A stretch of DNA of 64,000 nt. It comes from Dipteronia dyeriana. Taxonomy: Eukaryota > Streptophyta > Magnoliopsida > Sapindales > Sapindaceae. Position numbers and translations under genes: made by a program. This document shows positions 6,171 to 32,385 of this stretch, in pieces. The notes under the pieces were generated by a model that saw only the letters and a program-made list of their open reading frames with translations, did not search any database and had not been told where the DNA came from. The first letter of the stretch is position 1; each line of letters begins with the position of its first letter. Location of the stretch: positions 96,781,891 to 96,845,890 of the forward strand of contig CM065298.1 in the NCBI GenBank assembly GCA_032871835.1. The letters are read 5' to 3'.

Positions 6171-6172
6171 AT

Positions 6173-7485
6173 TGATTGCAGTATTTTTGATCTTAATCAA
6201 TTTAAAGAAAAATTTGTTCACTGTGATCAATGATTCGACTAGTTGAACACTAATTAATCTAATTAAATCCTAATCTAAGTGCATGAAAACTAAATGGCAA
6301 AATGCTTGTCTTGGGTTGGTATTTTAACTCACTAATATGTAACAATGCAATAAACTAAATTACCCAAAAGCTCACATGAAAATATGAATAGGGGAAATGC
6401 TAGGGAATCAATGCAACCAAATTAAACTACTTAATGTAATCCATAAGTCTCATTCAAGCATTTAAATCCAATTGATGGGGTTTGTTTCATGAAGCACCTA
6501 ATCTTTCCTATTACTCACACAATGGCATTTAATGAGCAATGGTTAGAATTAGTTTTTAATTAAAAAAACTCTAAACCAAACCACACATAGCATGGTCATG
6601 CATATGAAAATTTTCTCAATTATTAAGCTTGTAGTTAGAGACTAAATGGGATGGTCACCCACATCTAACCCTCAACATCGTAAATTAACTAATCCTAACA
6701 CAAACATTCATTGAGGTCTCATTTGAATATAAGTGAAAGAATTAGAACAAATATTATAATAAAGGAGACTACCAATGTATTTAATTAATAAACATTATAG
6801 GATTACAAAGAGTTGTTCAACCGGTTTACATTAGTCCCCTAACTTAGAAATTAGTTACACATCAAAGAATGGAAATAAAACAAAGAATAGTGAAAGAAGA
6901 AACCAAAGTTGGTCATTGAGGTTTCTTGACCTGTAAGATTCATCTTCTTGCTTTCCATGATTCCAAGATGGATGGATGGAGGAAAAATATCTAAGGATGG
7001 TGATGGAGGGTGAAAGTGTCTGAAAGTTCGTGTGGCTGATGTTCTTTCACCAAAATATAAGATGGGTATTTATATGGGTCCAAAAATAGGTCAAGAATCA
7101 ACCTAGAAATATGTGCTGGTAGACTGTCACTTCACTGTATATCGCGGTTGTCCATGACGACATGTCACAGTCTTCCATGACGATGTGTCACGGTCTTTCA
7201 TGACGACATCACAAGCGACACTTCAGAAAAGTTGTTTTCGCGTGGTGTGTCACGGTCTCCCATGACGACACACCATGACAACATCATCTTGTGTCATTTT
7301 GTCTAAGTTTCTAATTTTCAGCTCTTTTGGGTCCCAATCTTTACTCATATCTCTCATATGATGCCCCTAATACAAAATCCTACAAAAACACTTAATCGAG
7401 CCCTTAAACACTTGATTTTACCAGAGAATTGGGTAATAAGCGTAGGTTGGGAGACTCAAAATCTAGTGTTATCATGGCTCGATCA
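6173..7485 (-). repeat. 5' LTR of element A
   Basis: Pairs with 582-1879. The hairpin-rich block corresponds to about 7140-7285. On the minus strand it ends directly before the tRNA-Asp primer site. Confidence 0.9.
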
Positions 7486-7876
7486 ATATTCTGGAAAAAA
7501 GAAAGAAGAAATAAGAAAGAGAGAATGAGAGATATCAGAGATTCAGAGAGATAGATCAAAGAAAGGAAGAAAAACGAGAGAGAGAGAGAGAGAGGGAGGG
7601 ATGTCTCATGTCAGTGATTTAAAGAAAGAGAAAGAGAAAGAGATAAAGAGATAAAGAAAAAATAAAATATAAAAATATAAAAAAATCGGTTGGGACTTCC
7701 AAAATCGAACTGAACCGTCGATTCCTGGTCGATTTTTTTCGATGAGAACCGAAACCGAAATTTAAACCCCACGGTTATGATTACGGTTATAGAACCGGTT
7801 CTATGGTTCCGACTACGGTTATGGTTCGGTTCCACGGTTTAAACCGAACTGAACCGTGGTCATGTCTATGTCATGG

Positions 7877-8670
7877 GTCGGACCCTTGGGCTTGGGCTTT
7901 CGTTTTGGGTCTAGAGCTTGTTTTTGATTGTTCTATTTTTGGCTACTACAATAATTATTTTTGAATTGTTTTTATTACATATTATATGTATAATTGTTTA
8001 ACATGGGTATACATGTACAATTACTTATTTTCAGTCAGTTTAATTATAAAAAACAAACGTGTTAACAATGTATTCAGATGTGATGAAAGAAAAAACAAAC
8101 CTGTCATTCAAGTTCTGATTTCAATCCCTATTCAATCCTTTAAAAAAAATCAAGATTGTTCAGTCTTTAGACAAAAAAAAAAACAAATGACCTCTTAATT
8201 TTTTAAAAGATTCATTAAATCTCTTGACAGATTATAATTACTTTAGATAAGTAACTCATCATTAACTTCTTAAAATTGATGTCAAATCAACTCAGATTAT
8301 TAAATAATCACTTTTAAAAGATTTATCAAATATTTTTTTAATATATAAATATTAAATCATCTAATTTAACTTCTTAAAAAAATTATCAAATTGGCACTTA
8401 ACCCGCATGTTTGTAAGACCCAGAAGTTTTGAACTTTCAACCCGAGCAACCTGTGAATGATCCCGACTGAAGCTAATTGATCAGACATGATTGAGGGCTC
8501 AACGGTTCGGCCCACAATTGGGGTGAAATTGGATACGGCCCCTATACAGAGGCTTTCTAAAGCCCCTAGATGCAAAGTAAATCTAGTGGTCTTTTCCTGG
8601 TCTAAATTGGCAAAACAAAATCGAAGTATAACATTAATCATCATTTACTCTATTATTTTTTGTTTTTGAC
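7877..8670. other. Unassigned spacer between H1 and element C
   Basis: AT-rich DNA without recognisable genes. The last ~90 bases (about 8580-8670) resemble 51395-51440, the left part of the dispersed repeat that continues beyond element C at 23443. Confidence 0.5.
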
Positions 8671-8859
8671 TGATATGTCCTAAAGAAGTGTTCATACTCC
8701 CAAGTATAAGAATGTCATAGTAATAAATTAACCGGTAAGACCGGGTCGAACCACAGGGAGGTTGTTCACTTGTTTTGCAGAATTAATTATCTAGATTAAT
8801 TACTAAGCTTGTTATAAAATGTAAATCAATTAAAATTTAAAACTAGGACTAAGGGATCC
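8671..8859 (-). repeat. Left LTR of element C, outer part
   Basis: Reverse complement of the terminal ~190 bases of the C/B type LTR, including the conserved CCGGTAAGACCGGGTCGAACC. It continues at 18681 after removal of element B and one GATCC. Confidence 0.9.
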
Positions 8860-10116
8860 TGATTAACACTGAAAAGTGTATGTTTACTAAGGGATAATAT
8901 CATCATTTTACACTTCCAATATGATTAATTCCCCAATTCAGACATAATTTCGTTCGTTCGCTTAAATAAATGTGTTTTGTAGTAATCAGTATATTTTTCT
9001 TTGTATTTCAGAGTTAATTCAATCAATTCAGAATCATGGAGAAGTCAGATGGCAAAACAAACATTGTTTTCAAGTTTAGAACGTCAAAAAACCATAAGAA
9101 GACTACGAAGGGCATTTTCATAATTTTGATTTTTCACTGTTCACAGTTGACTTTCATTGTTCAATCACGATGCGTTATTGTTCACTCTCGGATGCGTACT
9201 GTTCACTCATGGATGGGGGGTACTATTCACTATCACTGTTCACAGAAGGGTATTTTCGTAATTTTGACTATTCACTGCTCACTGTTGACTTTTATTGTTC
9301 ATAGTTGACTTTCACTGTTCACTCATTGATGCGTTTACTGTTCACTCATGGATGGGTTACTGTTCACTGATGATGTGGTGAAATCTGGACGCTCCATTCT
9401 AAATTCATCCGATGGTCAATTTTCATCCAAATTTTATATAAATAAGGGGTCTCCCCCCTAATTTTCACATTCTGAATCCAAATATAATGTTAGATTTGTG
9501 AAATTCTCTCTCTTTTGTTCTCAAATTCTCATTTTAAATAAAATAATTATTTTATAGTTAATTTATGTCTAGCTAATTTTATATAGCTGGGGACAAAGGT
9601 GATACCGTTGGTATGGAAAATATGATCCAATTTTGGCAAGTTTATTATTTTTATGCTTTCTCCCCTCTGATCTTTGTTGAGTTTTTGACTCACTGTAGAT
9701 AGACAGATATTGTCTAGCACAGTGAGTACTTTTACCCATATCTATCAGAGAGTGGTTTATCCTCTCTAATCTTTATGGAGTTTTTGACTCATTGTAGACA
9801 GGCATATATTGTCTGGCACAGTGAGTACTTTTACCCACATCTATTAGAGAGTGGTCAGTGGAGTGGAATACCCTCCCATTAATCTATACTAAATACAAAT
9901 AATTGGATCATATTCGAAATACCAACAGTGGAACCCTTAGCCCCAGTATTAATTTTAATTGATTTACATTTTATACAAGTTTATTAATTAATCTAGAAAT
10001 TAATTCTACAAGGACAAGTGAACAACCTCCATGTTGTTCGACCCGGTCTTACCGGTTAATTTATTACTTTGACACTCTTATACTTGAGAGTAGGAACACT
10101 TCTTTAGGATGTGTCA
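8860..10116 (+). repeat. 5' LTR of element B
   Basis: 1257 bp. It has many copies of TTCACTGTTCAC-type motifs (about 9135-9370), a probable leader segment, and two tandem ~100-bp units (about 9660-9850) with palindromic cores. The end carries CTCCATGTTGTTCGACCCGG and the CCGGTCTTACCGG hairpin. Confidence 0.93.
9688..9727. repeat. Nested palindrome in the B 5' LTR
   Basis: Outer arms ACTCACTGT / ACAGTGAGT and inner arms AGACA / TGTCT around GATAT. The element recurs, with slight changes, in each ~100-bp tandem unit of all B and C LTRs. Confidence 0.85.
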
Positions 10117-10122
10117 AGTTTT

Positions 10123-10140
10123 TAGCGCCGCTGCCGGGGA
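10123..10140 (+). other. Primer-binding site of element B (tRNA-Asp type)
   Basis: TAGCGCCGCTGCCGGGGA, six bases after the LTR. Two changes from the tRNA-Asp complement. Confidence 0.88.
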
Positions 10141-10590
10141 GGTAAGTCTGCATTTTCTTTGTAGTAGTAATTTCTTTTTAATTTTATTTCAGTTTTGATA
10201 TTTTTTTCTATCTTCTTTATATTTATTTTGTATTTAATTTTGCATCACTCATCTCAATCATAAACTTCGTCCACTTGAAAAAAAAACACTTATTATATTT
10301 AATCATATTTTTGCATTTTAGTCCTTGTACTTTTTATTTGCATTTTAGCTTAGATCTAGTTTGTATTTGCATATAGGTCATTTTATTTTTCATTTTTGCA
10401 TATCAGTCCCTGTAATTATCATGTTTTCACTTCAGTCCCTATATTTATAATTATTTACACTTTTTCCCCCACACTCGTGCATATTTGCATTTACACCCCT
10501 AGAATTTTCATCTTGTTATTTTTATCATTTTTCTTTTATTTTATTCATTTTTGTGTATTTCATCTCCATTAACCCTCATTCACTAACAAC
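10139..10590 (+). promoter_or_regulatory. Leader with a strong splice donor after the primer site
   Basis: The primer site runs into GAG|GTAAGT with the donor GT at 10142-10143, an ideal plant 5' splice site. The leader to the gag ATG (10591) is T-rich with loose repeats of TTTGCATTTTAGTCC and TCAGTCCCTATA (about 10310-10450). Element C has the same leader. Confidence 0.5.
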
Positions 10591-11876
10591 ATGGCTGGAA
10601 ACCCACTTAGACATCCAGCACGAAACCAAGCTGAAAACCTTTTAGAAACCCTTGACAACATATCTCAACACGGCAACTAGCCGGCCTTATGTTGACCATG
10701 ACAACCACATTAACCCAAATCCACCTAGAACTCTTAGAGACTACATGAATCCCACACGTACTGGAGCACCTTCATGCATAGCTTTCCCACCAAATGCAAC
10801 ACACTTTAATTTTAAACTGAGAATCATTCAACTTTTACCCAATTTTCACAGTCTTGAATCTGAAAATCCATATTTGTATCTTAGAGAGTTTGAGGAAGTC
10901 TGTAACACTTGCACTGACCAAAATGTTAGCATGGATATAATCAAGCATAAGTTTTTCCTTTTTTCCTTAAAAGATAAAGCTAAAACTTGGTTATAAAACC
11001 TTATGTCAGGATCAATCCAAACTTGGAATGATATGCAACAACAGTTCTTAAAGAATTTTTTCCCCACCTCATAGAACAAACTCTCTTAAGAGGCAAATCA
11101 CTTCATTTGCCCAAAAACCTAGGGAAACACTTTACCAATGTTGGGATAGGTTCAAAAAGTTGTTAAATGTCTGTCCACATCACGGTTTTGAAACATGGAG
11201 GATAGTTTCACATTTCTATGAGGGACTCACACCCCAAAGTAAACAAGTCATTGAAATGATGTGTAATGGGGAGTTCAGTGACAAAACTCCTGAAGAAGCA
11301 CTTGAATACCTTGACCATATCGCCAAAAGTGCTCAAAATTGGGACACAGTTGGTTCCTATGAGTCCATGAGCAAACCACAACCATCTCCATCTAGTGGAG
11401 GCATTTACAATCTTAGGGAAGATCATGACCTTCAAGCTAGATTCACATCCCTAGCTAGGAAAGTTGAAGCTTTAGAAACTAAAAAGAGTGAACATGTAAA
11501 ATCTATACAAGAAATTGCATGCCATGTTTGTGATTCTGATGATCATATCACTCATAGTTGCCCAACTTTGCCAGCCATAAAAGATTGCCTTTATGAACAA
11601 GTCAATGTTTTGCATGATTTCAACAAGCCAAATTCCAACCCATATTCACAAACCTACAATCCTGGTTGGAAGAATGACCCAAATTTTAGTTGAAGGAACA
11701 ACAATCAAGCCCAGGCTTCACAACCACCAGGTCCATCACATCCCCAAACACACCAGAATTTCCAAAACCCTCAAGGTTATGCACCTTATGTCCCACCATA
11801 TAGGAAAAACCTTGAAGACACTTTATACTCATTCATTGAGAAGCAAGAATCCATTAACAACCAAACTGCACAAACC
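10591..11876 (+). pseudogene. gag: gag of element B
   Basis: The frame starts ATGGCTGGAAACCC and reaches a stop after 29 codons (about 10678). The gag coding then continues in another frame (about 10652-10996) with segments such as RTLRDYMNPTRTGAPSCI and FHSLESENPYLYLREFEEVC, typical of the Athila capsid N-terminus. Several stops follow around 10994-11160, then an open stretch at 11160-11693 (YEGLTPQSKQVIEMMCNG) ending in NPYSQTYNPGWKNDPNFS, where TGA replaces the usual Trp codon. Gag normally forms the particle and binds RNA. A CHVCDSDDHITHSC stretch (about 11517-11560) is the zinc-knuckle-like part. The gene is broken by at least one frameshift and several stops. Confidence 0.85.
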
Positions 11877-13162
11877 TTGATAGATGTTAAAGATACTTTG
11901 GCAAAGATTGCTTCTACACTCACCACACATGAAAAAGGTAAGTTTCCATCTCAACCACAACCAAATCCCAAGAGTCAGTCAAGTTCCTATGATAATAACC
12001 AATGCCCAGATCAAGTCAAATCAATTATCACTCTTCGTAGTGGTAAGGTCATCGAAAAACCTATTCTTGAATCTGGTAAAAATGATGATGAGTCACTTTC
12101 CAAGGGTAAGGAAGGGGTTGATGAAACCACTGTTGACGAAGAAATAATTGAATCCCCACTTACACTCCCATATCCTCAGGCTCTTAAAAATTCACAGAAA
12201 TCGAAGCATTCCCCAGAGATTTTTGAAATTTTCAAACAGGTAAAGATCAATATCCCTTTGTTGAACGCAATCAAACATGTACCTTCCTATGCCAAATTTC
12301 TGAAGGATCCGTGCACTGTGAAAAGGAAGCATCAGGTAAAAAAGAAATCATTTATGGCTGAACAGGTAAGTTCCATTCTTTCCAATAAAAATGTTTTGAA
12401 ATATAAAAATCCTGGCTATCCCACTCTTTCCTGCACAATTGGTAACTGTAAAATTGAGCATGATATACTTGACCTAGGTGCTAGTGTAAATTTGCTCTCA
12501 TACTCATTTTATCAGCAACTTAAACTTGGTGAGTTAAAGCCGACTTCAACCACACTTTATCTTGTTGATATGTCAATTAATATACCAAAAGGAATAGTGG
12601 AAGATGTGTTAGTACAAGTCGATAAATTTATCTACCCAATATATTTTATTGTCTTGGAAACACAACCTGTTGTTAATGAGCACAAATCAATTCATGTTAT
12701 ATTGGGCCAACCATTTTTGGCTACTGCTAATGCCTTGATTAATTGCAGGAATGGAATAATGAGCATGTCTTTTGAAATATGGAAATTAAGCTTAATGTTT
12801 TCAGCATGTCTAATGAATCATTTGATGATGAAAATGAAGATAAAGATGAAGACATTATTGAAACCATTGTTGAAGATCATGTTCAAAAGGATTCTTTTAA
12901 CTCATCTAAAATTTGTTCGATCAATTCACCTGAGTCAAGCTCGCATTCACATCTTGATAATTGTTTGCAGATAGTCGAAGAAGAAAGAGAAACTTCAGAT
13001 TTTGAAAAATTGGAATGGAAAGATGACGAGCCAGAAGAAAAAGCACCCATCAATGATTCTTTTTCTGATAAACTTTTATTCTCTATCACAACTTTGCCTT
13101 GGTATGCTGACATTGTTAATTATCTTGCAACAGGAATGATGCCACTCGATTGGAATGCATAG
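11877..13162 (+). pseudogene. Retropepsin-type protease and linker of element B
   Basis: Open from 11877 to 12974. The aspartic-protease active site is DLGAS (12471-12485), with the flap-side motif ILGQPFLATA (about 12697-12726). After about 12776 the homologous frame shifts to the one read from 12779 to 13162, an acidic linker (SFDDENEDKDEDIIETIVED). It ends in TLPWYADIVNYLATG, which normally lies after RNase H. The whole reverse transcriptase and RNase H, several hundred codons, are therefore missing between the linker and PWYADIVNYL. The protease would process Gag-Pol; here it is separated from gag by broken frames. Confidence 0.82.
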
Positions 13163-14394
13163 AATAAAAAGAAATTTTTGACCGAGGTAAAACGTTTTAC
13201 TGGGATGACCCGTACTTATTCAAGTATTGTCCTGATCAAATTGTTCGACTGTGTATTCCAGGCAATGAGGTAAGTAGTGTCATTGAATTTTGTCATTCTG
13301 AAGCATGTGGTGTCATTTTTCTTCAAAGAAAACGGCTGTAAAAATCTTACAGTGTGGATTTTATTGGCCCACCTTGTTTAAAGACGCACATGCATTTTGT
13401 AAAACCTGTGAAAAATGTCAAAAGTTAGGATCCATTTCCAAGCGAAACATGATGCCTTTAAACCTCATTCTTGTCATTGAAATATTTGATTGTTGGGGAA
13501 TTGATTTTATGGGTCTATTTCCACCGTCATTTGGATTTTTGTACATTTTAGTTGCTGTTGATTATGTGGCAAAATGGGTAGAGGCAATTCCTTGTCGAAA
13601 TAATAATCACAAAACAGTTACCAAGTTTTTAAAGGAAAATCTTTTGAGTCGATTTGGAATCCCTCGAGCCATTATTAGCGATGGAGGCAAACACTTTTGT
13701 AAAAAACCTTTTGAGTCTTTAATGAAGAATTATGGAGTCACACACAAAATTGCCACACCATACCACCCTCAAACAAGTGGTCAAGTTGAGTTAGCAAATA
13801 GGGAGATAAAACATATCTTGCAAAAAACGGTTAACCCTGATCGAAAAGATTAATCTCTTAGACTAAATGATGCACTTTGGGCTTACCGCACTGCATTCAA
13901 AACATCTTTGGGTATGTCTCCTTATCGTTTAATTTATGGAAAACCTTGCCACTTACCTGTTGAACTTGAGAAAAAAGCATATTTGGCCATTAAAGCTTTC
14001 AATTCTAACCTAAATGATGTTTGTGAATTGCGCAAGTTGCAATTAAATGAACTTGAAGAATTAAGAAATGATGCATAAGAAAATGCAAAAATTCTTAAAG
14101 AAAAATCTAAAACCTTTCATGACAGACGAATTTTAAGAAGATCATTTGAAGTTGGTCAAAAGTTTTTGCTTTATAATTCTCGACTTCATTTATTTTCCTG
14201 GTAAATTGAAATCGAAATGGAGTGGTCCATTTGTTGTGAAACACGTGTATCCATATGATGCCCTTGACATTGAGAATCCTAGGAATGGTAATGTGTTTAA
14301 AGTAAATGGACAACGTGTGAAACCATTATTAGAAAATACAGATTTTCAAAAAGATTCTGCCGTTCTTTCTGACCCTTGTTACAAAAGTGAGTAA
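13163..14394 (+). pseudogene. Integrase of element B
   Basis: After a stop at 13160 the sequence still encodes KRFYWDDPYLFKYCPDQIVR. A single frame at 13305-13853 then covers the zinc-binding region (CKTCEKCQKLG) and the catalytic core, with Asp in IDFMG (about 13500), Asp in IISDGG (about 13675) and Glu in GQVELANREIK (about 13783). The C-terminal domain follows with a TAA at 13851, another stop near 14076 and a frameshift near 14190. It resumes with the GPF/Y-like segment KSKWSGPFVVKHVYP at about 14212-14256 and ends at 14394. All three catalytic acids are present, but the breaks make it non-functional. The family is Ty3/Gypsy integrase. Confidence 0.87.
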
Positions 14395-14468
14395 ACAAAT
14401 CTTTTGCTTTTGACTTTATTTGTGTTTGCAATTATTATTTTTGTTTTTGTTTGCTTCTATGTTTTGAA

Positions 14469-14477
14469 TTTTTGCAG
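14469..14477 (+). promoter_or_regulatory. Candidate splice acceptor before the 183-codon ORF
   Basis: TTTTTGCAG preceded by a T-rich stretch. With the donor at 10142 it could make a spliced subgenomic mRNA for the downstream ORF, as is proposed for env-like ORFs of plant Gypsy elements. A similar GTTTTGCAG lies at about 16175-16183. Confidence 0.35.
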
Positions 14478-14612
14478 GATTAATTTCTAGGTTCAATTTT
14501 TGCTTGGTGTGTTTTGCTATATAACCCCGGTTAAGTGGCGGATAACGGTACTTCGTGACAATTCCAGTCGGTTTAATTCAGTTTCCTAAATAACTGATCC
14601 CCAAAACAAGGC

Positions 14613-15164
14613 ATGGACGAAATTTTCACAAACCTGCGAAAACATTTTCCATCGTTGCCCCAAAATGCTCTGAAAAAGATTTACAAAGCACGTTTCGAAA
14701 TATTACGCTTACTGATGATAAACAACATTCCTGTTGAAATTCGCTGGTTGATCGAAGCTAAGGTACATCTAGCAGGTGAGTCTGTTGATTCATTTATATC
14801 TTACATGCCTGGTTTTGGAAGAAGTAACCTTGCAAAAAAACGAAGAGCTAAGAAGTTAGGGGTTACTTGTCACAAATGTGCACGTACAACTTGCAACACA
14901 CGTTGTCGTTCTTTAGGAATAGTGTCTAATAATCGGGAAGATAAAATTTTATTCATTAGGCATGGTTTGCGTAGGGAGTCACTGGATAATATCCTAACGA
15001 CTCTTGATGCACATCCTAGTGGATATGTACAAATGGCAATTGACCGTTTATGGCCACAATTTCAAAAAGAACATGCACAATATAGTCTTGGGAATCTGAC
15101 TTTAAAAGACCATGTTTGCCAATTTATAAGAAAATTGGATGGGAAGCATATCCCCGACCCATAG
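14613..15164 (+). CDS. Uninterrupted 183-codon ORF of unknown function in element B
   Basis: A complete frame from ATG to TAG, placed where Athila elements carry their third (env-like) ORF. I do not recognise the protein. Visible features: a helical N-terminal half (LPQNALKKIYKARFEILRLL), a basic NLS-like stretch NLAKKRRAKK at about residues 71-80, and immediately after it a Cys cluster CHKCARTTCNTRC (CX2CX4CX3C, about 85-97) suited to binding zinc. I see no signal peptide or membrane segment, so it does not look like an envelope protein. Gag, protease and integrase of the same element are all broken, while this frame is intact. A possible splice acceptor (TTTTTGCAG, ending 14477) lies 135 bp upstream. 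Its last ~32 codons persist in element C. Confidence 0.7.
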   Translation: MDEIFTNLRKHFPSLPQNALKKIYKARFEILRLLMINNIPVEIRWLIEAKVHLAGESVDSFISYMPGFGRSNLAKKRRAKKLGVTCHKCARTTCNTRCRSLGIVSNNREDKILFIRHGLRRESLDNILTTLDAHPSGYVQMAIDRLWPQFQKEHAQYSLGNLTLKDHVCQFIRKLDGKHIPDP

Positions 15165-15387
15165 AGGGCGTTGAAGCCGTTTCTGGACGTAAAACCAGAG
15201 GAAGATGTGAGCCACAATCACAACTACCAATAAATATCCTTTTGTTTTTATGATTTTTTTCCTTCCGCATTTGATGTCTTTTGTAATTATTGTTGTTTAC
15301 TTTTGATTTTTGAACCATTTGGATCTAATATCATTGACAAATACGCCACCCTATACAGGTGTATCATTGTGTTACCTTTTCAGGATC

Positions 15388-15395
15388 TATAAATA
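15388..15395 (+). promoter_or_regulatory. TATA box upstream of the LOG-like gene
   Basis: TATAAATA, 71 bp before the ATG at 15466 (first base to start of gap), in a context (GGATCTATAAATACAAGC) typical of plant core promoters. The ~150 bp between the 183-codon ORF's 3' flank and this ATG is absent from element C. Confidence 0.5.
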
Positions 15396-15465
15396 CAAGC
15401 ATTTGTTTTCCTTTTTGCTTCAAGCACTCATAAACATTCAAAAGAAAAATTCAGAGAGTGCATTA

Positions 15466-16119
15466 ATGGCGTCACCTTCAACTAAATGATTCACAAACAT
15501 TTGTGTGGTTGGTGGCACCAATTATGGGAAATACAAAGAGTTTATTGATGCTGCAACTCATCTTGGTAAGGTTTTGATTGAGCGAAAAATACACCTAGTG
15601 TATGGAGGAGGTAACTTGGGATTAATGGGATGTGTTTCACGAGCTACATGAGACAGAGGTAGTCAAGTTCTGGGTATTGTCCCAAAACCTATGGCCACAG
15701 CAAACATCATCGGAAAGACAAACGGCAAAGAGCTAGTTATTTCAGGTATGCTTGAAAGATTGACTGCTATGTTACATCATATTGATGCGTTTATAGCTTT
15801 ACCAGGTGGTTTTGGAACCTTAGAAGAAATCTTTACAATGGCATCATGGGCGTAACTACACATCCATGAGAAACCCATCGGTTTGTTGAATGTTAATAAA
15901 TTTTATGATGTTTTGCTTTCATTTCTTGATCATGCTCAGAAAAATTATTACATTCCACCTTCAATCCGAAAAATCGTTATATCTGCTTCAAGTCCTCATG
16001 AGCTGATTGACCAGTTACAAGCTTTCAATTATGTGCCAGATCCTTCAACCTCCAAAATTGATTAGTCCACTGATGAAGAGAACAAGAAACGTAGAATTGA
16101 TCTGAATCTCAGTTTGTGA
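15466..16119 (+). pseudogene. LOG-like: Captured LOG gene (cytokinin riboside 5'-monophosphate phosphoribohydrolase), intronless
   Basis: One frame of 218 codons from ATG to TGA, the usual LOG length. LOG enzymes release active cytokinin bases from N6-substituted riboside monophosphates in the cytosol and nucleus. The family signatures are present: GGGNLGLMG at residues 47-55, PGGFGTLEE at 113-121, and a catalytic-type Arg at 98 preceding the latter with Glu at 121. Flanking parts also match (IHLVYGGG, HIDAFIALPGG, HEKPIGLLNV). Four in-frame stops break it, at 15487 (TGA), 15649 (TGA), 15853 (TAA) and 16063 (TAG). Each is one C-to-T change from CGA, CAA or CAG, and the 15853 stop stands where LOG proteins have the Gln of WAQL. 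No introns and no frameshifts. The tail KKRRIDLNLSL after the fourth stop is not typical of LOG. The gene lies inside element B, same strand, upstream of its 3'UTR, so it is a captured host gene. Confidence 0.92.
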
Positions 16120-17324
16120 TTGTCCCATGTTTTTTATGCATTTTATTTTCCTTTATTTTGTATCTTTTTTGTTGTTTTGCAGGATTTTGTTGTCTTTCAA
16201 GTTGTTCAGATGATATCTTCTAAACCTTAACTCTTTCTAAAGACATTGGGGACAATGTCTCATTCTGGTTATGGGGAGGGGATAATTGATTCAATAACTT
16301 TTGTTTTTTTTTTTAAAAAAAACCTAACTTTTGACCATTTTTTTTGTAAAGATGGTCGAGTAAGGAGATCTTTTAGATACTTCCGAGACGCATCTTTGTA
16401 GTTCTGATGCATTTTTTTTCTTTTCCTCTCTTCTGACTATTCAAATTTATAAACTCTCCATTGTGATATCATTGACTAATCCTTTTGTTCATTAAGTAAT
16501 CTTGAGAAATTTTTCAAACTATTCTAGACACACAGGCACATTGACAAGTGATTATGTGCAGTAAGTTGAGATTTTGCGATATTGAGTTCTGAAATATCAT
16601 TCAAGGGTAACAAACAAAGGCAGTGGTCTTGTTTAAAAATTTATATAGTAATAATAATAATAATAATAATTTTGTGTGTTGTAACCAAAACTCTTACTTA
16701 GTAGACAGGCCTCATGCTTCAGTAAGCATAGAGTGTTTGCGCAAAACGGTGGAGTCTGGATAAGAATAAAGTACAGTTATGTAGCCTCTTTAACTCGAGC
16801 AATTAAGTCCGAGGGGTGCTTTAACACCTAATGCCCTAAGACCAACTGGTTTGGGAGTCATTGACCCAAATCTCGTTACACGGGTTAAAGAGAAAGCTTA
16901 AGGGAATTGTACTAAAAAAAAAACATCTGCAATCCGAGTAATTAAGCTCGTAGGAGTGTTTTAACACTTAATGCCCTAAAGCCAACTGGTTTGAGAGTCA
17001 TTGGCCCAAAGCTTGCTACATGGATTAAAGATGGAATGTTTGTTTCCAATTTTGTTATATTAAAAAAAAAAAAAAACTGCTGCCTAAGGAAAAAGCCCTG
17101 GTGAGATTTCAGAATGAAAATGTTGTTTGATTTCAATTGAATCTCATAGTTATCGTGTTAATCTTTATTGAACACAAGAAAGTTTGACTGATAACTCAAT
17201 TGATGACTGGTTGTCAAAGGGTGAGAAAAGAGGTATGGGAGAGTTTGTCTATTTGGTAGTTCAGAGATTTGAATTTGAGTTTATACTATTTTAGCTTTAA
17301 TTGCTAGGGACAAGCAATAAGCTG
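16120..17324 (+). other. 3' untranslated interior of element B
   Basis: No gene seen. It holds the hairpin ACATTGGGGACAATGT (16243-16258) followed by a G-rich tract (about 16271-16282), a (TAA)n run at 16649-16671, and the tandem repeat listed separately. Confidence 0.7.
16796..17032. repeat. Tandem ~140-bp repeat in the B 3'UTR, two units
   Basis: Units begin at about 16796 and 16936. Both read GAG(C/T)AATTAAG...TTAACAC(C/T)TAATGCCCTAA...CCAACTGGTTTG.GAGTCATTG. The reverse complement of both units is in element C (about 20219-20420). Confidence 0.85.
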
Positions 17325-17335: not shown

Positions 17336-18675
17336 TGATTAACACTGAAAAGTGTATGTTTACTAAGGGATAATATCATCATTTAACATTTCCAATATGA
17401 TTAATTCCCCAATTAAGACATAATTTCGTTCGTTCGCTTAAATAAATGTGTTTTGTAGTAATCAGTGTATTTTTCTTTAAATTTCAGAGGTTATTCAATC
17501 AATTCAGAATCATGGAGAAGTCAGATGGTAAAACAAACATCGTTTTCAAGTTTAGAACGTGAAAAAACCTTAAGAAGACCACGAAGAGCATTTTCGTAAT
17601 TTTGACTTTTCACTGTTCACAGTTGGCTTTTACTGTTCACAGTTAACTTTCACTGTTCACTCATGATGCGTTATTGTTCACTCTCGGATGCGTACTGTTC
17701 ACTCATGGATGGGTTACTATTTCACTGTCACTGCTCACTGTTCACTGAAGGGCATTTTCGTAATTTTGACTATTCACTGTTCACAGTTCACAGTTCACAG
17801 TTCACAGTTCACAGTTCACAGTTGACTTTCACTGTTCACAGGTGACTTTTATTGTTCATAGTTGACTTTCACTGTTCACTCATTGATGCGTTTACTGTTC
17901 ACTCATGGATGGGTTACTATTCACTGATGACGTGGTGAAATTTGGACGCTCCATTCTAAATTCATCCTATGGTCAATTTTCATCCATATTTTGTATAAAT
18001 TGGGGGGCTCTCCCCCCTAATTTTCACATTCTGAATCCAAATCTAATGTTAGATTTTTGAAACTCTCTCTCTTTTGTTCTCAAATTCTCAGTTTAAATAA
18101 AATAGTTATTTTATAGTTAATTTTTGTCTAGCTAATTTTATATAACTGGGGACAAAGGTGATACCGTTGGTATGAAAAATATGATCCAATTTTGGTAAGT
18201 TTATTATTTTTATGATTTCTCCCATCTGATCTTTGTGGAGTTTTTGACTCACTGTAGATAGACAGATATTGTCTTGCACAGTGAGTACTTTTACCCATAT
18301 CTATCAGAGAGTGGTTTATCCCCTCTAATCTTTGTGGAGTTTTTAACTCATTGTAGACAGACAGATATTGTCTGGCACAGTGAGTACTTTTACCCACATC
18401 TATTAGAGAGTGATCAGTGGAGTGGAATACTCTCCCATTAATCTATACTAAATATAAATAATTGGATCATAATCGAAATATCAAAAGTGGATCCCTTAGC
18501 CCCAGTATTAATTTTAATTGATTTACATTTTATACAAGTTTATTAATTAATCTAGAAATTAATTCTACAAGGATAAGTGAACAACCTCCCTGTGGTTCGA
18601 CCCGGTCTTACCGGTTAATTTATTACTTTGACACTCTTATACTTGAGAGTAAGAACACTTCTTTAGGACGTGTCA
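17336..18675 (+). repeat. 3' LTR of element B
   Basis: 1340 bp. It pairs with 8860-10116. It is longer mainly through an ACAGTTCAC expansion at about 17783-17822 and neighbouring TTCACTGTTCAC repeats. It has the same two palindromic tandem units (about 18225-18420). Confidence 0.93.
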
Positions 18676-18680
18676 GATCC

Positions 18681-19896
18681 ACTGTTGGTAATTCGAATAT
18701 GATCCAATAATTAATATTTAGTCCATATTAATGGGAGGGTATTCCACTCCACTGACCACTCTCTGATAGATATGGGTAAAAGTACTCACTGTGCTAGACA
18801 ACATTTGTCTGTCTACAGTGAGTCAAAACTCCAAAAAGATCAGAGAGGATAAACCACTCTCTGATAGATATGGGTAAAAGTACTCACTGTGCTAGACAAT
18901 ATCTGTCTGTCTACAGTGAGTCAAAAACTCCACAAAGATCAGAGGGGAGAAACCACTCTCTAATAGATATGGGTAAAAGTACCCACTGTACTAGACAATA
19001 TCTGTCTGTTTACAGTGAGTCAAAAACTCCACAAAGATCAGATGGGAGAAAGCATAAAAATAATAAACTTACCAAAATTGGATCATATTTTTCATACCAA
19101 CAGTATCACATTTGGCCCCAGCTATATAAATTTAGTCAGTCATAATTTAACTAGAAAATAGCTATTTTATTTTAACTGAGAATTTGAGAACAAAATAGAG
19201 AGAATTTCACAAATCTAATATCATATTTTGATTCAGAATATGGAATTTAGGGGGTAAAGGCACCCTATTTATACAAAATACGGATAAAAATTGACCATCA
19301 GATGAATTTAGAATGTAGCGTCCAGATTTCGTCACGTCATCAGTGAATAGTGAACAGTGAACATTGAACGCATCCGTGAAAGTGAATAGTGATCAGTGCA
19401 CCAACTTCTAGATTATTATTCTCTGTAGTATGTGTACGGTGCACTCACAATTTAGCCCAATAAAAAATGTGTCACATCATCGGTCAATAATCTTCTTGAA
19501 AGTCAACTATGAATAGAGCACCGACTTCTAGAATGTGATTCTCTACAATCGTATGTACGATGCACTCGCAGTTTGAGCCAATAGAAATGTGCCACGTCAT
19601 TAAGAACAGTGAAAGTCAACTGTGATAAGTTAATAGTCAATATTACAAAAATACCCTTCATGTCCTTCCTAAGGTTTTTGATGTTCTAAACTTGAAAACG
19701 ATGTTTGTTTTGCCATCTAACTTCTCCATAATTTTGAATTGATCGAATTACCTCTGAAATACAAAAAACAATACACTGATTACTACACAACACATTTATT
19801 TAAGCGAACAAACGAAATTATGTCTAAATTAGTGAACTGGAAGTGTAAAATGATGATATTATCCCTTGGTAAACATACACTTTTCAGTGTTAATCA
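18681..19896 (-). repeat. Left LTR of element C, inner part
   Basis: Resumes at ACTGTTGGTAATTCG, exactly as the intact right LTR reads at 22190. It has three tandem ~105-bp units with palindromic cores (about 18740-19045), where B's LTRs have two. Confidence 0.9.
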
Positions 19897-21288
19897 CACT
19901 CTCTAACCAGCTTATTGCTAGTTCCTAGCAACTAAAGTGAAAATAGTAAAAACTCAAATTCAAATCTCTAAACTACCAAATAAACAAACTCTCTCATACC
20001 TCTTTTCTCACCCTTTGACAACCAGTCATCAATTGAGTTACCAATCAAACCTTCTTGTGCTCAATAAAGATCAACACAAAAACTATGAGATTCAATTGAA
20101 ATCAAGCAACATTTTCATTCTGAAATCTCATCAGGGCTGCTTCCTTAGGCATTACTTTTATTTTATTTTTTTATTTATTTTTTGTCTTTTTTTAATATAA
20201 CAAAATTGGAAACAAACATTCCATCTTTAATCTATGTAGCGTGCTTTAGACCAATGACTCCCAAACCAGTTGGCTTTAGGGCATTAGGTGTTAAAACACT
20301 CCTACGGACTTAATTACTCGGATTGCAGACGTTTTTTTTAATAGTACAATTCTCTTAAGCTTTCTCTTTAACCCAGTTGGTCTTAGGGCATTAAGTGTTA
20401 AAGCACCTATCAGACTTAATTGCTCGAGTTAAAAAGGCTACGAAACTGCATTTTATTCTAATCTAGACTCCACTGTTTTACGCGAATACTCTATGCTTAC
20501 TGAGTCATGAGGCCAGACTACTAAGTAAGAGTTTTGGTCACAACACACAAAATTATTATTATTATTATTACTATATATATTTTTAAACAAGACCACTGCC
20601 TTCGGTTGTTACCCTTGAATGATGTTTCAGAACTAAATATCGTAAAATCTCAACTTACTGCACATAATCACATGTCAATGTGCGTGTGTCTAGAATAGTT
20701 TGAATTTTTTTTCAATATGACTTAATGAACAAAAGGATTAGTCAATGATATCACAATGGAGAGTTTATAAATTTGAATAGTCAGAAGAGAGGAAAAAAAT
20801 GCATCAGAACTACAAAGATGCATCTCAGAAGTATCTAAAAGATCTCCTTACTCGATCACCATTACAAAAAAAAAATGGTCAGAAGTTAGTTTTTTTTTTT
20901 TTTTTTGAAAAACTAAAGTTATTGAATCAACTATCCCCTCCCCCTAACCCGAACGAGACATTTTCCCCAATGTCATTAGAAAGATGTAAGGTTTAGAAGA
21001 TATCACCTGAACAACTTGAAAAACAACAAAATCCTGCAAAACAATAAAAGAAATACAAAATATAGGAAAATAAAATACATAAAAACCATGGGACAATCAC
21101 AAACTGAGATTCAGATCAATTCTGCATTACTTGTTCTCTTCAAAAATAAAAAGTAAACAATAATAATTACAAAAGATATTAAATGCGGAAGAAAATAGGT
21201 AATAAAAACAAAGTGATATTTACTGGTAGTTGTGATTATGGCTCACATCTTCCTCTGGTTTTACGTCCAGAAACGGCTTCAACGCCCT
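19897..21288 (-). other. Non-coding 3' interior of element C
   Basis: Collinear in reverse with B 15165-17335, except that B 15315-16077 is missing at 21139-21142. It contains the tandem 3'UTR repeat (about 20219-20420), the conserved hairpin (20958-20973) and a degraded purine tract at 19897-19912. I see no gene. Confidence 0.75.
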
Positions 21289-21384
21289 CTATGGGTCGGG
21301 GATATGCTTTCCATCCAATTTTCTTATAAATTAGCAAACAGGGTCTTTTAAAGTCAGATTCCTAAGACTATATTGTGCATGTTC
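21289..21384 (-). pseudogene. 3' remnant of the 183-codon ORF in element C
   Basis: This matches the last ~32 codons of the ORF at 14613-15164 in element B. It has one new in-frame stop where B has CAA (in C, TGC TAA TTT). At its upstream edge (21381-21384) it is fused to the first ~48 bases of gag, showing that the intervening gag-pol was deleted across a GAAC-like microhomology. Confidence 0.8.
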
Positions 21385-21958
21385 TCGGCTTGGTTTCCTG
21401 CTAGATGTCTAAATGGGTTTTCAGCCATATTGTTAGTGAATGTGGGTGATTGAGATCTCCTAATTAATCTACCGCTAGATGTTCGAGACCAACGTTTCAT
21501 GTAAATTTAATGAGGGTTCATGGAGGCGAAATACACAAATATGAAGAAAATAAAAGAAAAAAGAAAAATAAGTGATGAAAATAACATGCAAAAATTCTAA
21601 GGGTGTAAATGCAAATATATACAAGTGTTGGGGTAAAAGTACAAATAATTATAAATATAGGGACTAAGGTGAAAATATGATAATTACAGGGACTGATATG
21701 CAAAAATGAAAATGAAAATGACCTATATGCAAATACAAACTAAATCTAAGCTAAAATGCAAATAAAAAGTTGAAAGACTAAAATGTAAAAATGTGATTAA
21801 TGATTACAAGTGCTTTTTTTTAAGTGGATGAAGTTTATGATTGAGATGAGTGATACAAAACTGAATATAAAATAATAACAAAGAAGATAGAAAAAAATAG
21901 CAAAACTAAAATATAATTAAAAAGAAATTACTTCTACAAAGAAATTGCGGACTTACCT

Positions 21959-21977
21959 CCCTAGCAGCGGCGCCAAA
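21959..21977 (-). other. Primer-binding site of element C (tRNA-Asp type)
   Basis: The minus strand reads TTGGCGCCGCTGCTAGGGAG directly after the LTR. It differs from the tRNA-Asp complement at a few positions. Confidence 0.8.
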
Positions 21978-21981
21978 AACT

Positions 21982-23437
21982 TGATATGTCCTAAAGAAGT
22001 GTTCATACTCCCAAGTATAAGAGTGTCATAGTAATAAATTAACAGGTAAGACCGGGTCGAACCACAGGGAGGTTGTTCACTTTTCCTTGTAGAATTAATT
22101 ATCTAGATTAATTATTAAGCTTGTTATAAAATGTAAATCAGTTATAAAATGTAAATCAGTTAAAATTTCAAACTGAGACTAAGGGATCCACTGTTGGTAA
22201 TTCGAAAATGATCTAATAATTAATATTTAGTCCATATTAATGGGAGGGTACTCCACTCCATTGACCACTCTCTGATAGATATGGGTATAAGTACTCACTG
22301 TGCTAGACAACATCTGTCTGTCTATAGTGAGTCAAAACTCAAAAAAAGATCATAGAGGATAAACTACCCTCTAATAGATATGGGTAAAAGTACTCACTGT
22401 GCTAGACAATATCTGTCTATCTACAGTGAGTCAAAAACTCCACAAAGATCAGAGAGGAGAAACCACTCTCTGATAGATATGGGTAAAAGTACCCAATGTA
22501 CTAGACATTATCTGTATGTCTACAGTGAGTCAAAAACTCCACAAAGATCAGACGGGAGAAAGCATAAAAATAATAAACTTACCAAAATTGGATCATATTT
22601 TCCATACCAACAGTATCACCTTTGGCCCCAACTATATAAAATTAGCTAGACATAATTTAACTAGAAAAATTTAACTAGAAAATAGCTATTTTATTTAAAT
22701 TGAGAATTTGAGAACAAAAGAGAGAGAATTTCACAAATCTAATATCATATTTGGATTCATAATATGGAAATTAGGAGGGAAAGGCCCCTCTATTTATACA
22801 AAATACGGATGAAAATTGACCATCGGATGAATTTAGAATGAAGCGTTCAGATTTTGCCATGTCATCAATGAATAGTGAATAGTGAACAGTGAATGCATCC
22901 GTGAAAGTGAATAGTGAACAATGCACCGGCTTCTAGATTATTATTCTCTACAGCATGTGTACGGTACACTCACAATTTAGGCCAATCGAAATGTGCCACA
23001 TTATCGGTCAATAATCTTCTAGAAAGTCAACTATGAACAATGCACCGACTTCTAGAATGTGATTCTCTACAGTCGTGTGTATGGTGCACTCGCAGTTTGG
23101 GCCAATAGAAATGTGTCACGTCATCAGGAACAGTGAAATTCAACTGTGAACAATAAATAGTCAAAATTACGAAAATACCATTCGTGGCCTTCCTAAGGTT
23201 TTTGACGTTCTAAACTTGAAAACGATGTTTGTTTTGCCATCGAACTTCTCTATAATTTTGAATTGATCGAATTACCTCTGAAATACAAAGAAAAATACAC
23301 TGATTACTACACAACACATTTATTTAAGCAAGCGAACGAACGAACGAAATTATGTCTAAATTAGAGAATTAATCATATTGAAAGTGTAAAATGATGATAT
23401 TATCCCTTAGTAAACATATATTTTTCAGTGTTAATCA
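21982..23437 (-). repeat. Right (5') LTR of element C
   Basis: An uninterrupted 1456-bp copy. It includes the uninterrupted GGGATCCACTGTTGG site (about 22186-22200) that shows where B inserted in the sister LTR, and three palindromic tandem units (about 22255-22560). Confidence 0.9.
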
Positions 23438-27408: not shown

Positions 27409-27694
27409 CGTTAAGGAAAACAACTCAAATGGAGCATATCACGGAGAAAATTCTATCACCAAATCTGAAAGTCGAGAGGCCATTATTATCTATAATAAAC
27501 CATCCCAGAATCAAGAAAAATCAAGAGATTTGTCAACTATACTGATCTGATTTGGTTTGCAATCACGTAAATTCATCTTTGTATTTATTTTTGCAAAGCT
27601 TCCTTATTTCCTCTATGTACTACATCTATATATTGTACAGAGTTATCAATGATAAAAGTACGCTTCCTTCCATCAAAAACTTTAGAAATTCTCA
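27409..27694 (+). repeat. 5' LTR of element D
   Basis: Begins CGTTAAGGAAAAC and ends AAATTCTCA. Pairs with 32100-32380. Confidence 0.92.
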
Positions 27695-27706
27695 TGGTAT
27701 CAGAGC
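27695..27706 (+). other. Primer-binding site of element D (tRNA-iMet)
   Basis: TGGTATCAGAGC, the standard plant Copia primer site, adjacent to the LTR. Confidence 0.92.
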
Positions 27707-27760: not shown

Positions 27761-28740
27761 ATGGAAGAGCCTCAACTTTCCATTCAATCCTTCCACCAGT
27801 GCTCAAGTTTGATCTTAATCAAACCGAATAACACCAACTACCTTATATGGCATTCCCAAATTCGTCATCTAACTCGTAGCCTAGGTGTGCTTCATCATTT
27901 TTAAAGCGGTGAAACACATGCTGCAGAAATAGAGGACGACAAAGGAAACAAGAGCCCAAACCAAGTTCATACTATTTGGACAAATAACAACGGGCTTATC
28001 ATCTCTTGGCTTTTCCTTACCATGAAAGAAGAGATGTAAAGCTCTATCCTTGAAGCTGAATTTACCACAGTGTACCAAATTTGGACGTCACGTGAAGAAC
28101 AACTCATTCCTATCATTATTGAGAATGAGGGACTGCAAAAAAAATATGCTCGTAACATTAAGATGGGCTCACGGTCTGTGGAGGAATATCTGAAGGAGTT
28201 CAAGATGATATGTGATAATCTTGCAACCATCAAGAAACCTGTCTTTGATATGGAGAATGTCTTTCAGTTTACTTGTGGTTTGGGATAAAAATATGAGAAA
28301 TTTTGTCTTGTTATGATTACAAAACCTCCATACCCAAGTTTTAGTCAGTTTGTGCTTGCTCTTCAAGGGCATGAGCAAACCATGGTTGTACAACGAGAAT
28401 AAGAAAGATTGTATATTGAGCATGCTCAAGCATTATTTGGGTAGTGTGAATGTGGATAAAACAATCGTAGAGGCAGATGTGGCTTCAATTATAGAGGTTG
28501 TGGCTTTACTCTTGCTGGACGGTATAACACTCAAAATGAAAGGCAAAACTCTCAAGGCAACAACAGTCAACAATAACCAAATCAAAACAAAAATCGACAG
28601 AGACAAAAGCAATTCAAGCAACAACATGACCCAAATAATACTACTGCCAAGCTTGCATGTCAGATTTGTGGGAGATCAAACCACCTCGAGATCAACTGTT
28701 GGTATTGGTTTGACTACTCATATCAATCTAAAGAGCTTCC
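27761..28740 (+). pseudogene. gag: gag of element D
   Basis: The ATG at 27761 opens a frame (FHQCSSLILIKPNNTNYLIW) like the N-terminus of Copia gag proteins, interrupted by a TAA near 27899. The capsid region continues in 28070-28288 (KMGSRSVEEYLKEFKMICDN) up to a stop at 28286, then LALQGHEQTMV. A CCHC zinc knuckle CQICGRSNHLEINC is encoded at about 28657-28698. The protein packages the element's RNA. At least three stops and frame changes separate the parts, so no full Gag can be made. Confidence 0.82.
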
Positions 28741-29480
28741 ACAAGCTCTTGATGCCATGGTTCTCAATGAAAATGATCCTTCTTTCTATGTCGACTCAAG
28801 AGCTATATCTTATATGATTAATGATCTAGGTAAATTATCCCACATTATACCTTATAATGGAAATGATGTTATTTATATTGGGAATGTAAATAGTCTGCCT
28901 ATAACTTACATTGGAGATACATGTGTTGACACTAAAGATGGAAAATTAAAATTGAAAGACGTTATTGTTGTACTGGGTGGAAAAGGAATTTGTTATCTAT
29001 TGGGAAATTTACTTCTCATAATTATTTCTCATTTGAATTACTTCTTCTTGCTTTGTCATTAAGGATCAAAAACAGAGAACGATAGCAAGTGGAACTAAGA
29101 GATGACATTTTTATGCTTTGGATGAATCGTTTCAGAAGGCTTTCAGTGTAATAAGGAAAAGTGGCTCTTATTCTATTTGGCACCAACGGTTTGGCCATCC
29201 TAATTTAAAGACATCGTCTTTGTTAAAGGAAAAGAAAGTCATTAATGTCACTAAATGGATTACTACAAAATATGTATATGTTAGTTGTCAATTGGGGAAG
29301 AGTTGTAAACTAACATTTATTTCTTCGAATAAAATTTCTGAGTTGCCTCTTGAAAAGATTTACTGTGATCTTTAAGGGCCTGCCCCTATTAATTTCAATC
29401 AAATATTTCGCTACTATGCAATATTTGTGGATGATTATTCTCGTGGTTTTATCCTTTAAAAGGGAAATCAAATTTCTTTT
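28741..29480 (+). pseudogene. Protease and gag-pre-integrase region of element D
   Basis: The frame 28757-29062 has FYVDSRAISYM, the Copia protease active site, in which the canonical Gly of DSGA is replaced by Arg; this alone should abolish activity. The pre-integrase segment at 29118-29375 contains YSIWHQRFGHPN (the His pair of the zinc finger) and CQLGKSCK. A TAA at 29373 interrupts the first catalytic region of integrase (CDL*GP). Stops lie between the two parts near 29060-29110. Confidence 0.8.
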
Positions 29481-30173
29481 GATGCTTTCAAAAGTTTCAA
29501 AATTTTGTTGAAAAAACAGTTTGATCATAAAATCAAAATTTTCCAATACGATGGTGGTCGCAAGTTTAGTTCAAATTCTTTTCTTGATCATGAGAGCGGA
29601 ATTCAAATGCAAATCTCTTATCTAGGTACACCTGAGAAAAACGGTGTTGTAGAGAGAAATCTCAAACATATAGTTGAGACAAGTTTGACATTACTCTTCC
29701 ATGCTAATTTACCAACTTCTCTTTCAGTTGAGGTATTTCTCATGGTTGTCTACTTGATTAATCGGTTGTCATCCTCATCTTTAAAATTTGAGAGTACTTA
29801 CTATAAGCTTTATAAACGGCATACAAACTATAATAGCTTGCGTGTGTTACAATGTCAATGCTTCCCTTCTTTAAGGCATCATGGTGGTTCAAAGTTCACA
29901 AAGAAAACATATCCTTGTGTTTTCTTGGGTTATAGCCAATACCACAAGGACCATCGATGTCTAGAGCTAGAAACGAAACGAGTCTACATCTCTCGCCATG
30001 TAGTGTTTGATGAAGAATATTTTTCGTATAAGGCCACTGAGAAAAAGCTTATCAATTCTCTGTTGATGGTGTTTGAATTTCCTTTCATGGATGAATGGTT
30101 TGATAGTGCCAAATTCAATCAATTCACCAAAAGATGCTGCTTTAGAAATAGAATCATTGACCAAGCAGAATGA
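29481..30173 (+). pseudogene. Integrase core of element D
   Basis: An open stretch of about 222 codons. The second catalytic Asp is in QYDGGRKF (about 29545-29568) and the Glu in PEKNGVVERNLK (about 29632-29667). The typical Copia C-terminal segment follows (KTYPCVFLGYS, YISRHVVFDE). The first catalytic Asp lies upstream, beyond a stop. The enzyme would insert element cDNA into chromosomes. The open length is notable but the domain is incomplete. Confidence 0.82.
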
Positions 30174-30510
30174 GGAAAAATCTCTTATGTTTGATGCTAA
30201 CGATTCACATTGCAATGATTTTCCTTTTGTTTATGGTGAAGATCAAACACTTTTCAAAAATAACAATTTAGTTATTGAGGATCAATCCATTGAAAATAAT
30301 GCTGAAAATAGAGCAATAAGTCGGGGGGTTGGAGAGGAAAACTCACCTCTTTCACCAACTAGTCAACACAGTAATTATGCTCATTAAGACACATTAATGA
30401 CAGATTTTAAAAATCTGAAATTTTCTATTCAACACACTAATTTTGCTTATAAAGACACTTTAATAACATATTTTGAAAATTAGAACTTATCTTTATCAGA
30501 TCCCCTATTT

Positions 30511-31400
30511 ATGCAAAATTTAGAATCAGATGTATCACAAGATCAACATCCAACTCGAGACCATCATCCTCCAGCTTATCTAAGAGATTATGTGTGTCTT
30601 ATGAACAACAATCACAATGCCCTTGTGATGGAAAATACAGCTCCTACTAAACCAAGAACTTTAAAATCTGCACTTAATGACCCAAGATGGGTTGGTAACA
30701 TGCGTGAAGAGTTGGATGCACTCTATGAAAATGGGTCCATTAAGCATTTTAAGGCCCGACTTGTTGCAAAGGGTTTTACTTGGATTTCTAGACTTGATTA
30801 CTACGAGATCTTTAGCCCGATTGTTAAAACGATAACAATTCGACATGTCATTTCCATCTATCTATCTCTTAGTTGTTGGATGAGACAATTAGATATCAAA
30901 ACGCCTTTTTTCATGGTCATCTCAAGGAGATTATTTATATGGAGTAACCAAATAGATTCATTTCCTCTCATCTTCATACTAATGTGTGTCTTTTGAAGAA
31001 ATCACTTTATGGGCTAAAGCAGGTGCCGCGTACATGGTCCGACAGACTCTCACAATACATTTTTCACATCGGCTTCTATTGTAGTAAGGCAGATTTATCT
31101 CTCTTTGTCCTACGCATACATAACATGGTTACCTTACTTCTCATTTATGTTGATGATATATTGGTTGTTGACAATGATAATATTTTCATCACTGATCTTA
31201 TTCAACAACTTGGCTATGAATTTGCTATTAAAGATTTAGGGTCTCTTAATTATTTTCTTGGTATAGCAATTAAGCCATTTCAGGGTGGAGTTTTCTTATC
31301 TCAAGCAAAATACACTCAAGATCTACTCACTTGCACTCAATTATACTTGAAAGCACTGCCAATGCTACACCTATGAGTCCCAAGGATAAAGTAATATCAT
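30511..31400 (+). pseudogene. Reverse transcriptase of element D
   Basis: Starts with LKSALNDPRWVGNMREEL and runs to KARLVAKGF. About 27 codons that normally precede KARLVAKGF (the region with CKWVFKIK) are deleted near 30735. The frame stops at 30994 and resumes at 30984-31376 with KKSLYGLKQ, the catalytic YVDD (31146-31157) and LNYFLGI. Copia family; the deletion and frame changes inactivate it. Confidence 0.87.
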
Positions 31401-32099: not shown

Positions 32100-32380
32100 T
32101 GTTAAGGAAAACAGTTCAAATGGAGCATATCATGGAGAAAGTTCTGTCACCAAATCAGAAAGTTAAGAGGCCAATATTGTCTACAATAACCATCCCAGAA
32201 TCAAGGAAAATCAAGAGATTTATCAACTATACATATCTGATTTGGTTTGCAATCACATAAATTCATCTTCGTATTTATTCTTATCAAAGCTTCCTTATTT
32301 CCTCTATTTACTACATATATACACAGAGTTATAAATGATAATATTACGCTTCCTTCCATCAAAAACTTTATAAATTCTCA
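32100..32380 (+). repeat. 3' LTR of element D
   Basis: Begins TGTTAAGGAAAAC and ends AAATTCTCA. Confidence 0.92.
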
Positions 32381-32385
32381 TAATC

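Follow-up and report, generated by a model that had tools for sequence, protein, structure and literature searches.

How does a gene for a hormone-activating enzyme of the LOG type come to lie inside an LTR retrotransposon, and is it a lasting part of that element or an accident of one copy? The window, meaning the whole 64,000-nucleotide stretch of Dipteronia dyeriana DNA that was analysed, raises both questions at positions 15466-16119 (plus strand). A sequence-only reading had identified a LOG frame there, and this identity holds: the segment encodes a LOG protein by Pfam (PF03641, Lysine_decarbox, E 8.2e-35), and matches the Arabidopsis LOG-type structures 2a33 (E 3.4e-52) and 1ydh (E 1.2e-47). 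The translation contains the GGGNLGLMG, PGGFGTLEE and R98 on which the assignment had been based, together with E121. R98 and PGGxGTxxE with E121 are the catalytic residues of LOG. Chance likeness to LOG is excluded because of these E-values and the many genomic copies described below. The frame spans 654 nt, i.e. 217 codons and a stop, and is free of introns, as had been claimed. The same reading had described an open frame of 218 codons; four in-frame stops, at codons 8, 62, 130 and 200, contradict it. This copy is a dead member of a family that lacks reverse transcriptase and is present many times in the Dipteronia genome. In the same genome, a 40-residue probe finds its best host-type LOG match over residues 10-40 only, the pattern that an exon edge would produce, and host LOG genes of peanut mostly have 7 exons and 6 introns, according to passages of PMC13257298.

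The frame sits on the sense strand of an LTR element, here called element B, between the integrase, whose ORF lies upstream, and the 3' LTR, in the position previously given. The 5' LTR (8860-10116, plus strand) and 3' LTR (17336-18675, plus strand) form a pair with TG...CA ends and a K2P distance of 0.0597 over 1257 aligned sites, and the exact GATCC target-site duplication already reported flanks them at 8855-8859 on the left and 18676-18680 on the right (both unstranded). Directly after the 5' LTR comes a primer-binding-site-like stretch, GCGCCGCTGCCGGGGA, for which a tRNA identity is presumed, followed by the last bases before a splice-donor-like AG/GTAAGT (10117-10141, plus strand). The coding pieces follow in the order gag, protease-like ORF, integrase, a cysteine-rich protein (CRP) of 183 aa, and LOG. 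The gag piece (11052-11693, plus strand) matches PF03732 at E 8.9e-9; the next ORF (11694-12974, plus strand), which has no Pfam match, contains LDLGASVNLL, which we take to be a protease-like motif; and the integrase (13302-13853, plus strand) matches PF00665 and PF17921 (E 3.6e-16 and 8.5e-7). LTRs, target-site duplication, gag and an integrase downstream of the protease are all present, as in the Athila lineage of Ty3/gypsy elements, an arrangement that also fits other Ty3/gypsy lineages. Pfam detects no reverse transcriptase or RNase H in the 9 ORF pieces scanned out of the 31 listed, and neither was found between ORF 11694-12974 and the integrase. Over 12975-13301, the interval from the protease-like ORF to the integrase, the window aligns collinearly with two further long copies in the genome, L031 and L032, so that loss of reverse transcriptase is common to three of the three copies examined; L032 also lacks 12463-12751.

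Element B is one of many. A DNA search of the genome from which the window comes (914 Mb in 78 contigs) gave at least 1045 candidates, of which 40 were scored, each near full length: the window copy at 100% identity and the other 39 at 94-95%. Protein searches of the same genome scored 150 of at least 786 candidates and 150 of at least 1045. A set of 90 of 92 loci (L031 and L032 left out) reduces to 73 distinct LOG sequences, whose identity to the window copy is 91-100%. CRP adjoins LOG, at 475 or more of its 552 nt, in 71 of these 73, and is whole or nearly whole in length in 29 of the first 30 loci; having been collected by LOG search, the loci are uninformative on copies free of LOG. The sequence-only reading had proposed looking for other elements with the same gene order, and many copies match, which means that the refuting outcome it had named does not arise. 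Since they keep that order, LOG is not confined to element B, and uptake of LOG by an LTR retrotransposon lineage, as originally suggested, is supported by the intronless copies and their common arrangement. The accompanying search for intact frames succeeds in part, as an internal stop is absent from 31 of the 73 distinct copies, without regard to inserted bases, and occurs at least once in the other 42; 15 of the first 30 loci are without an internal LOG stop, one of these having a one-base deletion.

The lack of introns would equally be explained if the copies were ordinary processed pseudogenes of host LOG genes that lie in repeats by chance, an explanation to which we assign almost no probability given the CRP neighbour in 71 of the 73 copies, the 41-49% identity of the 150 scored genomic matches to host LOG3, and the separate clade that element-type LOGs form (see below). 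We consider it likely instead that an Athila-like Ty3/gypsy lineage took up a plant LOG, probably once and long ago, and that the gene has since stood beside CRP as a regular member of the element. The plant gene would have entered the lineage through RNA or a spliced intermediate.

Element B lies in an LTR of a second, related element, C (18676-23437, minus strand; remainder of this LTR at 8670-8859). Element C lacks exactly the counterpart of B 15315-16073, and the junction (21139-21142, minus strand) falls at a 4-nt TGAA overlap. So precise a gap could be taken as an empty site, with LOG having been inserted recently into element B. This is highly improbable: C retains the CRP end and the last LOG codons, which are also present in the element-type LOGs of Populus and Citrus; gag-pol has been lost from C as well, with no match to B 10581-15067; and LOG occurs in many copies, although these were found by means of LOG. 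Because the final codons are shared with other plants, and because C and B are 86-93% identical on either side of the missing segment, C is read as a deletion derivative and not as a pre-capture site.

Other repeats are present in the window. A second direct repeat pair (581-1880 and 6172-7486), about 90% identical and 5.6 kb apart, probably marks another LTR element; direct repeats at 27410-27695 and 32101-32381 flank Copia-type pieces at 28350-30996 (RVT_2, SH3_retrovirus); and 45274-47688 contains ORFs of non-LTR-type reverse transcriptase and RNase H-like kind.

A protein search with the window LOG returned 6877 matches, and the 120 listed come from Dipteronia, Xanthoceras, Populus, Citrus and many unnamed metagenome proteins. 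Many of these are encoded on metagenome contigs, and the label element-type rests on similarity; genomic context is at hand for the window's genome, for P0314 and P0336 of Citrus and for P0002 and P0003 of Xanthoceras. The two Citrus gene models fuse CRP to LOG, and a Pfam scan at E 0.01 recovers both domains in P0314 and the LOG-related domain only in P0336. In the two Xanthoceras proteins, a stretch of 42-48 residues that is 56-60% identical to window ORF 11694-12974 (E 1.5e-12 and 5.5e-12) is set between LOG pieces. Three further element-type LOG fragments, P0007, P0011 and P0101, are named cytokinin phosphoribohydrolases in public records.

Phylogenetic analysis places 38 element-type LOGs in one group (99/95) and 23 host LOGs in another (100/98). 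The sequences were chosen by eye and comprise 37 of the 120 listed element-type matches plus the window copy, and 22 of 120 host matches plus LOG8, with two bacterial LOGs as outgroup. The host sample represents the LOG1, LOG3 and LOG8 types, and because LOG5/7/9-type proteins are absent from it, a single origin, like the uniqueness of the C-terminal tail discussed below, holds for the sampled LOGs only. Element-type LOGs share with host LOG1/3/8 cytokinin riboside 5'-monophosphate phosphoribohydrolases the fold, the Lysine_decarbox domain, R98 and PGGxGTxxE. They differ from them in being intronless, in their low identity to host LOG3, and in changed residues near R98. Among 110 full-length element-type rows, R98 is conserved in 96% and E121 in 95%. 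The strict PGGxGTxxE motif is found in 85 of the 110, compared with 107 of 115 host rows, and MxxRxxxM in 98 of 110, compared with 115 of 115; many residues fixed in host rows, e.g. lysine 99, are different. The AF2 model of one relative, P0012 (mean pLDDT 84.9), aligns with 2a33 at E 3.9e-24 and an rmsd of 1.1. The activity predicted for the element LOG would be that of a cytokinin riboside monophosphate phosphoribohydrolase.

Element-type LOGs have a C-terminal tail, which in the window reads KKRRIDLNLSL (16084-16116, plus strand) and joins a basic stretch to an EAR-like LxLxL. This motif stands at the very end of 100 of the 120 listed element-type LOGs and of none of the 120 listed host LOG1/3-type matches; among the 20 without it are truncated or unusual gene models and the Xanthoceras type, whose sequence stops once the basic stretch is complete. 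Entropy across the 105 of 110 rows that reach 215 aa or more is low at the leucines (0.34, 0.08 and 0.16 bits at positions -1, -3 and -5), compared with 1.89, 0.99 and 0.46 bits at -2, -4 and -6. LxLxL also ends 16 of 18 rows picked as less than 75% identical in an ungapped comparison, P0024, P0107 and P0116 being possibly among the 18 through register shift only. The tail falls outside the confident core of the P0012 model, with low confidence at 201-212 and 215-217. The likeness to EAR repressors is one of sequence motif; in such proteins, motifs of the LxLxL type work via TOPLESS, according to passages of PMC10942257. A flexible, basic tail of this kind could direct LOG into the nucleus and into contact with TOPLESS-type co-repressors. 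The open-licence literature yielded no retrotransposon protein described as having an EAR motif.

The CRP ORF (14613-15164, plus strand), which is open in the window copy and conserved in element copies and other plants, encodes a cysteine-rich protein resembling nucleic-acid-binding proteins of plant viruses. The window copy matches PF01623 (Carla_C4) at E 3.7e-4 and 20.8 bits, against a Pfam cut-off of 20.9, and PF05515 (Viral_NABP) at E 1.4e-3 and 19 bits, against a cut-off of 23. Its relatives number 312 at E 0.01 or better, and the 120 listed each have a precomputed PF01623. Fifty CRPs, namely the window copy and 49 chosen by eye from the 120 listed, were scanned at E 0.01; 47 match Carla_C4 (best 3.7e-8) and 47 match Viral_NABP (best 1.2e-8). 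In common with the nucleic-acid-binding CRPs of carlaviruses and Betaflexiviridae, the element protein combines a Pfam match with a basic stretch, KKRRAK, directly before a cluster of four cysteines. It differs from the carlavirus proteins in its length of 182-183 aa, in an additional conserved C-terminal part, in being carried by a retrotransposon, and in its cysteine spacing, C-x2-C-x4-C-x3-C, in place of the zinc finger C-X2-C-X12-C-X4-C given in passages of PMC8839810.

This difference in spacing, scores of the window copy below both Pfam cut-offs, the lack of a confident fold (pLDDT 58) and the absence of any relative in the PDB at E of 1 or below would fit convergence on a basic and zinc-finger motif in place of homology to the viral proteins. 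Convergence is a possibility of some weight that we nevertheless do not favour, since 47 of the 50 chosen relatives match two plant-virus families, with E as low as 1.2e-8, and in the window copy the PF05515 alignment extends over 86 residues. Scans of viral contigs, with the CRP alignment and P0012 as queries, yielded no relatives, and a search of PHROGs with CRP gave nothing better than E 0.05. The open-licence literature yielded no mention of CRP in retrotransposons.

Both genes are preceded by sequences resembling splice acceptors. Downstream of the primer site, three of three copies (B, L032 and element C) retain the donor-like AGGTAAGTC, L031 not extending that far. Before the CRP ORF, an acceptor-like T-tract and CAG (14467-14477, plus strand) takes the form TTTTT[AG]CAGGATT in 29 of 30 loci, the remaining one not being covered. 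Before LOG, the acceptor-like TGTGTTACCTTTTCAG (15368-15383, plus strand) lies in a 20-nt string that 20 of 30 loci share without any difference; in 4 of 30 its CAG/G has been altered or lost. In active lineages, CRP and LOG would probably be expressed from spliced subgenomic RNAs that use the donor after the primer site and the acceptor before each gene. The spacers between CRP and LOG have slightly higher similarity between copies than either gene, which alone is no evidence for function. Another acceptor-like T-tract and CAG, in a 19-nt string identical in 20 of 30 loci, occurs shortly after LOG at 16168-16182.

Within the Dipteronia family, the two genes drift almost neutrally. Relative to neutral expectation, N/S for LOG across 73 copies is 0.99, 0.89, 1.02 and 0.50 for changes found in 1, 2-3, 4-7 and 8 or more copies, with an uncorrected one-sided p of 0.04 for the last class. 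For CRP across 70 copies the values in the same classes are 0.91, 1.05, 0.94 and 0.52 (p 0.095 for the last), and across the first 30 loci N/S lies between 0.78 and 1.1 (LOG) and between 0.6 and 1.03 (CRP). In the larger set, all classes except that of the most widely shared changes are thus near neutral, and this counts against a present role in the Dipteronia genome, where LOG and CRP look like decaying cargo. The sole sign of past selection is conservation, at the protein level, among distant relatives, which suggests past function in active elements.

Near-neutral N/S, internal LOG stops in 42 of the 73 copies and the lack of reverse transcriptase are also what would be seen if LOG and CRP were passengers acquired by chance, without any role for the element and persisting only through young copies. 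We regard this as unlikely, because protein relatives that mostly share 53-62% identity with the window LOG keep 217-aa frames, R98, E121 and the tail, which unselected DNA would not be expected to do over such divergence. Past function in active elements is the preferred reading, and LOG and CRP may have been of benefit to such elements. Carlavirus CRPs bind nucleic acids and suppress silencing, and that of one virus has been linked to a cell-proliferation regulator, according to passages of PMC8839810 and PMC10141686. A more elaborate proposal, which we hold to be quite doubtful, is that the two genes form a host-manipulation module, in which a virus-like, nuclear CRP would damp silencing or alter transcription and a nuclear, co-repressor-binding LOG would act with it to promote meristem-like dividing cells and thereby heritable insertions.

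Steinbauerova et al. reportedly described, in 2011, two Athila-like elements with similarity to LOGL4. Passages of PMC9289625, which cite Steinbauerova et al. 2011 for the YgdH/LOG finding, report that the consensus sequences of Gypsy elements from two Citrus species and, with a filter off, from Populus trichocarpa contain a YgdH domain, which is linked there to LONELY GUY proteins. Since LOG-type domains in Citrus and Populus Gypsy elements have thus been published, LOG capture by a retrotransposon is not new, and the earlier impression that it was undescribed has to be abandoned. The elements in those passages resemble the present ones in carrying a LOG-type extra domain inside Ty3/gypsy and in overlapping host range; what differs here is the new host genus, the copy numbers, the copies lacking reverse transcriptase, the LxLxL tail and the CRP neighbour. 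PMC9289625 also describes Ty3/gypsy elements of orchids that contain an m6A demethylase domain; these are alike in having captured an enzyme domain, and differ in enzyme and hosts. No earlier mention of the tail or the CRP neighbour was found in the open-licence literature, including the available passages of PMC9289625. The terms YgdH, cytokinin, lysine decarboxylase and LOG have 0 occurrences in PMC7264820, as do decarboxylase, cytokinin, YgdH and phosphoribohydrolase in PMC11963269 and "decarboxylase" in PMC6317226. The capture of LOG is real, multi-copy and known in kind, and it looks ancient; the LxLxL tail and the CRP partner may be new features beside it.

To our knowledge, retrotransposons are thought seldom to retain a host enzyme for long. 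A hormone-activating enzyme retained as a standing gene by elements in Sapindales and, judging from relatives and the literature, in Populus, together with a tail that looks regulatory and a partner resembling viral proteins, would tie transposons to plant growth and silencing control. There is also a practical consequence for genome annotation: LOG gene counts in such genomes may be inflated by element copies, and several listed "cytokinin phosphoribohydrolases" are of the element type.
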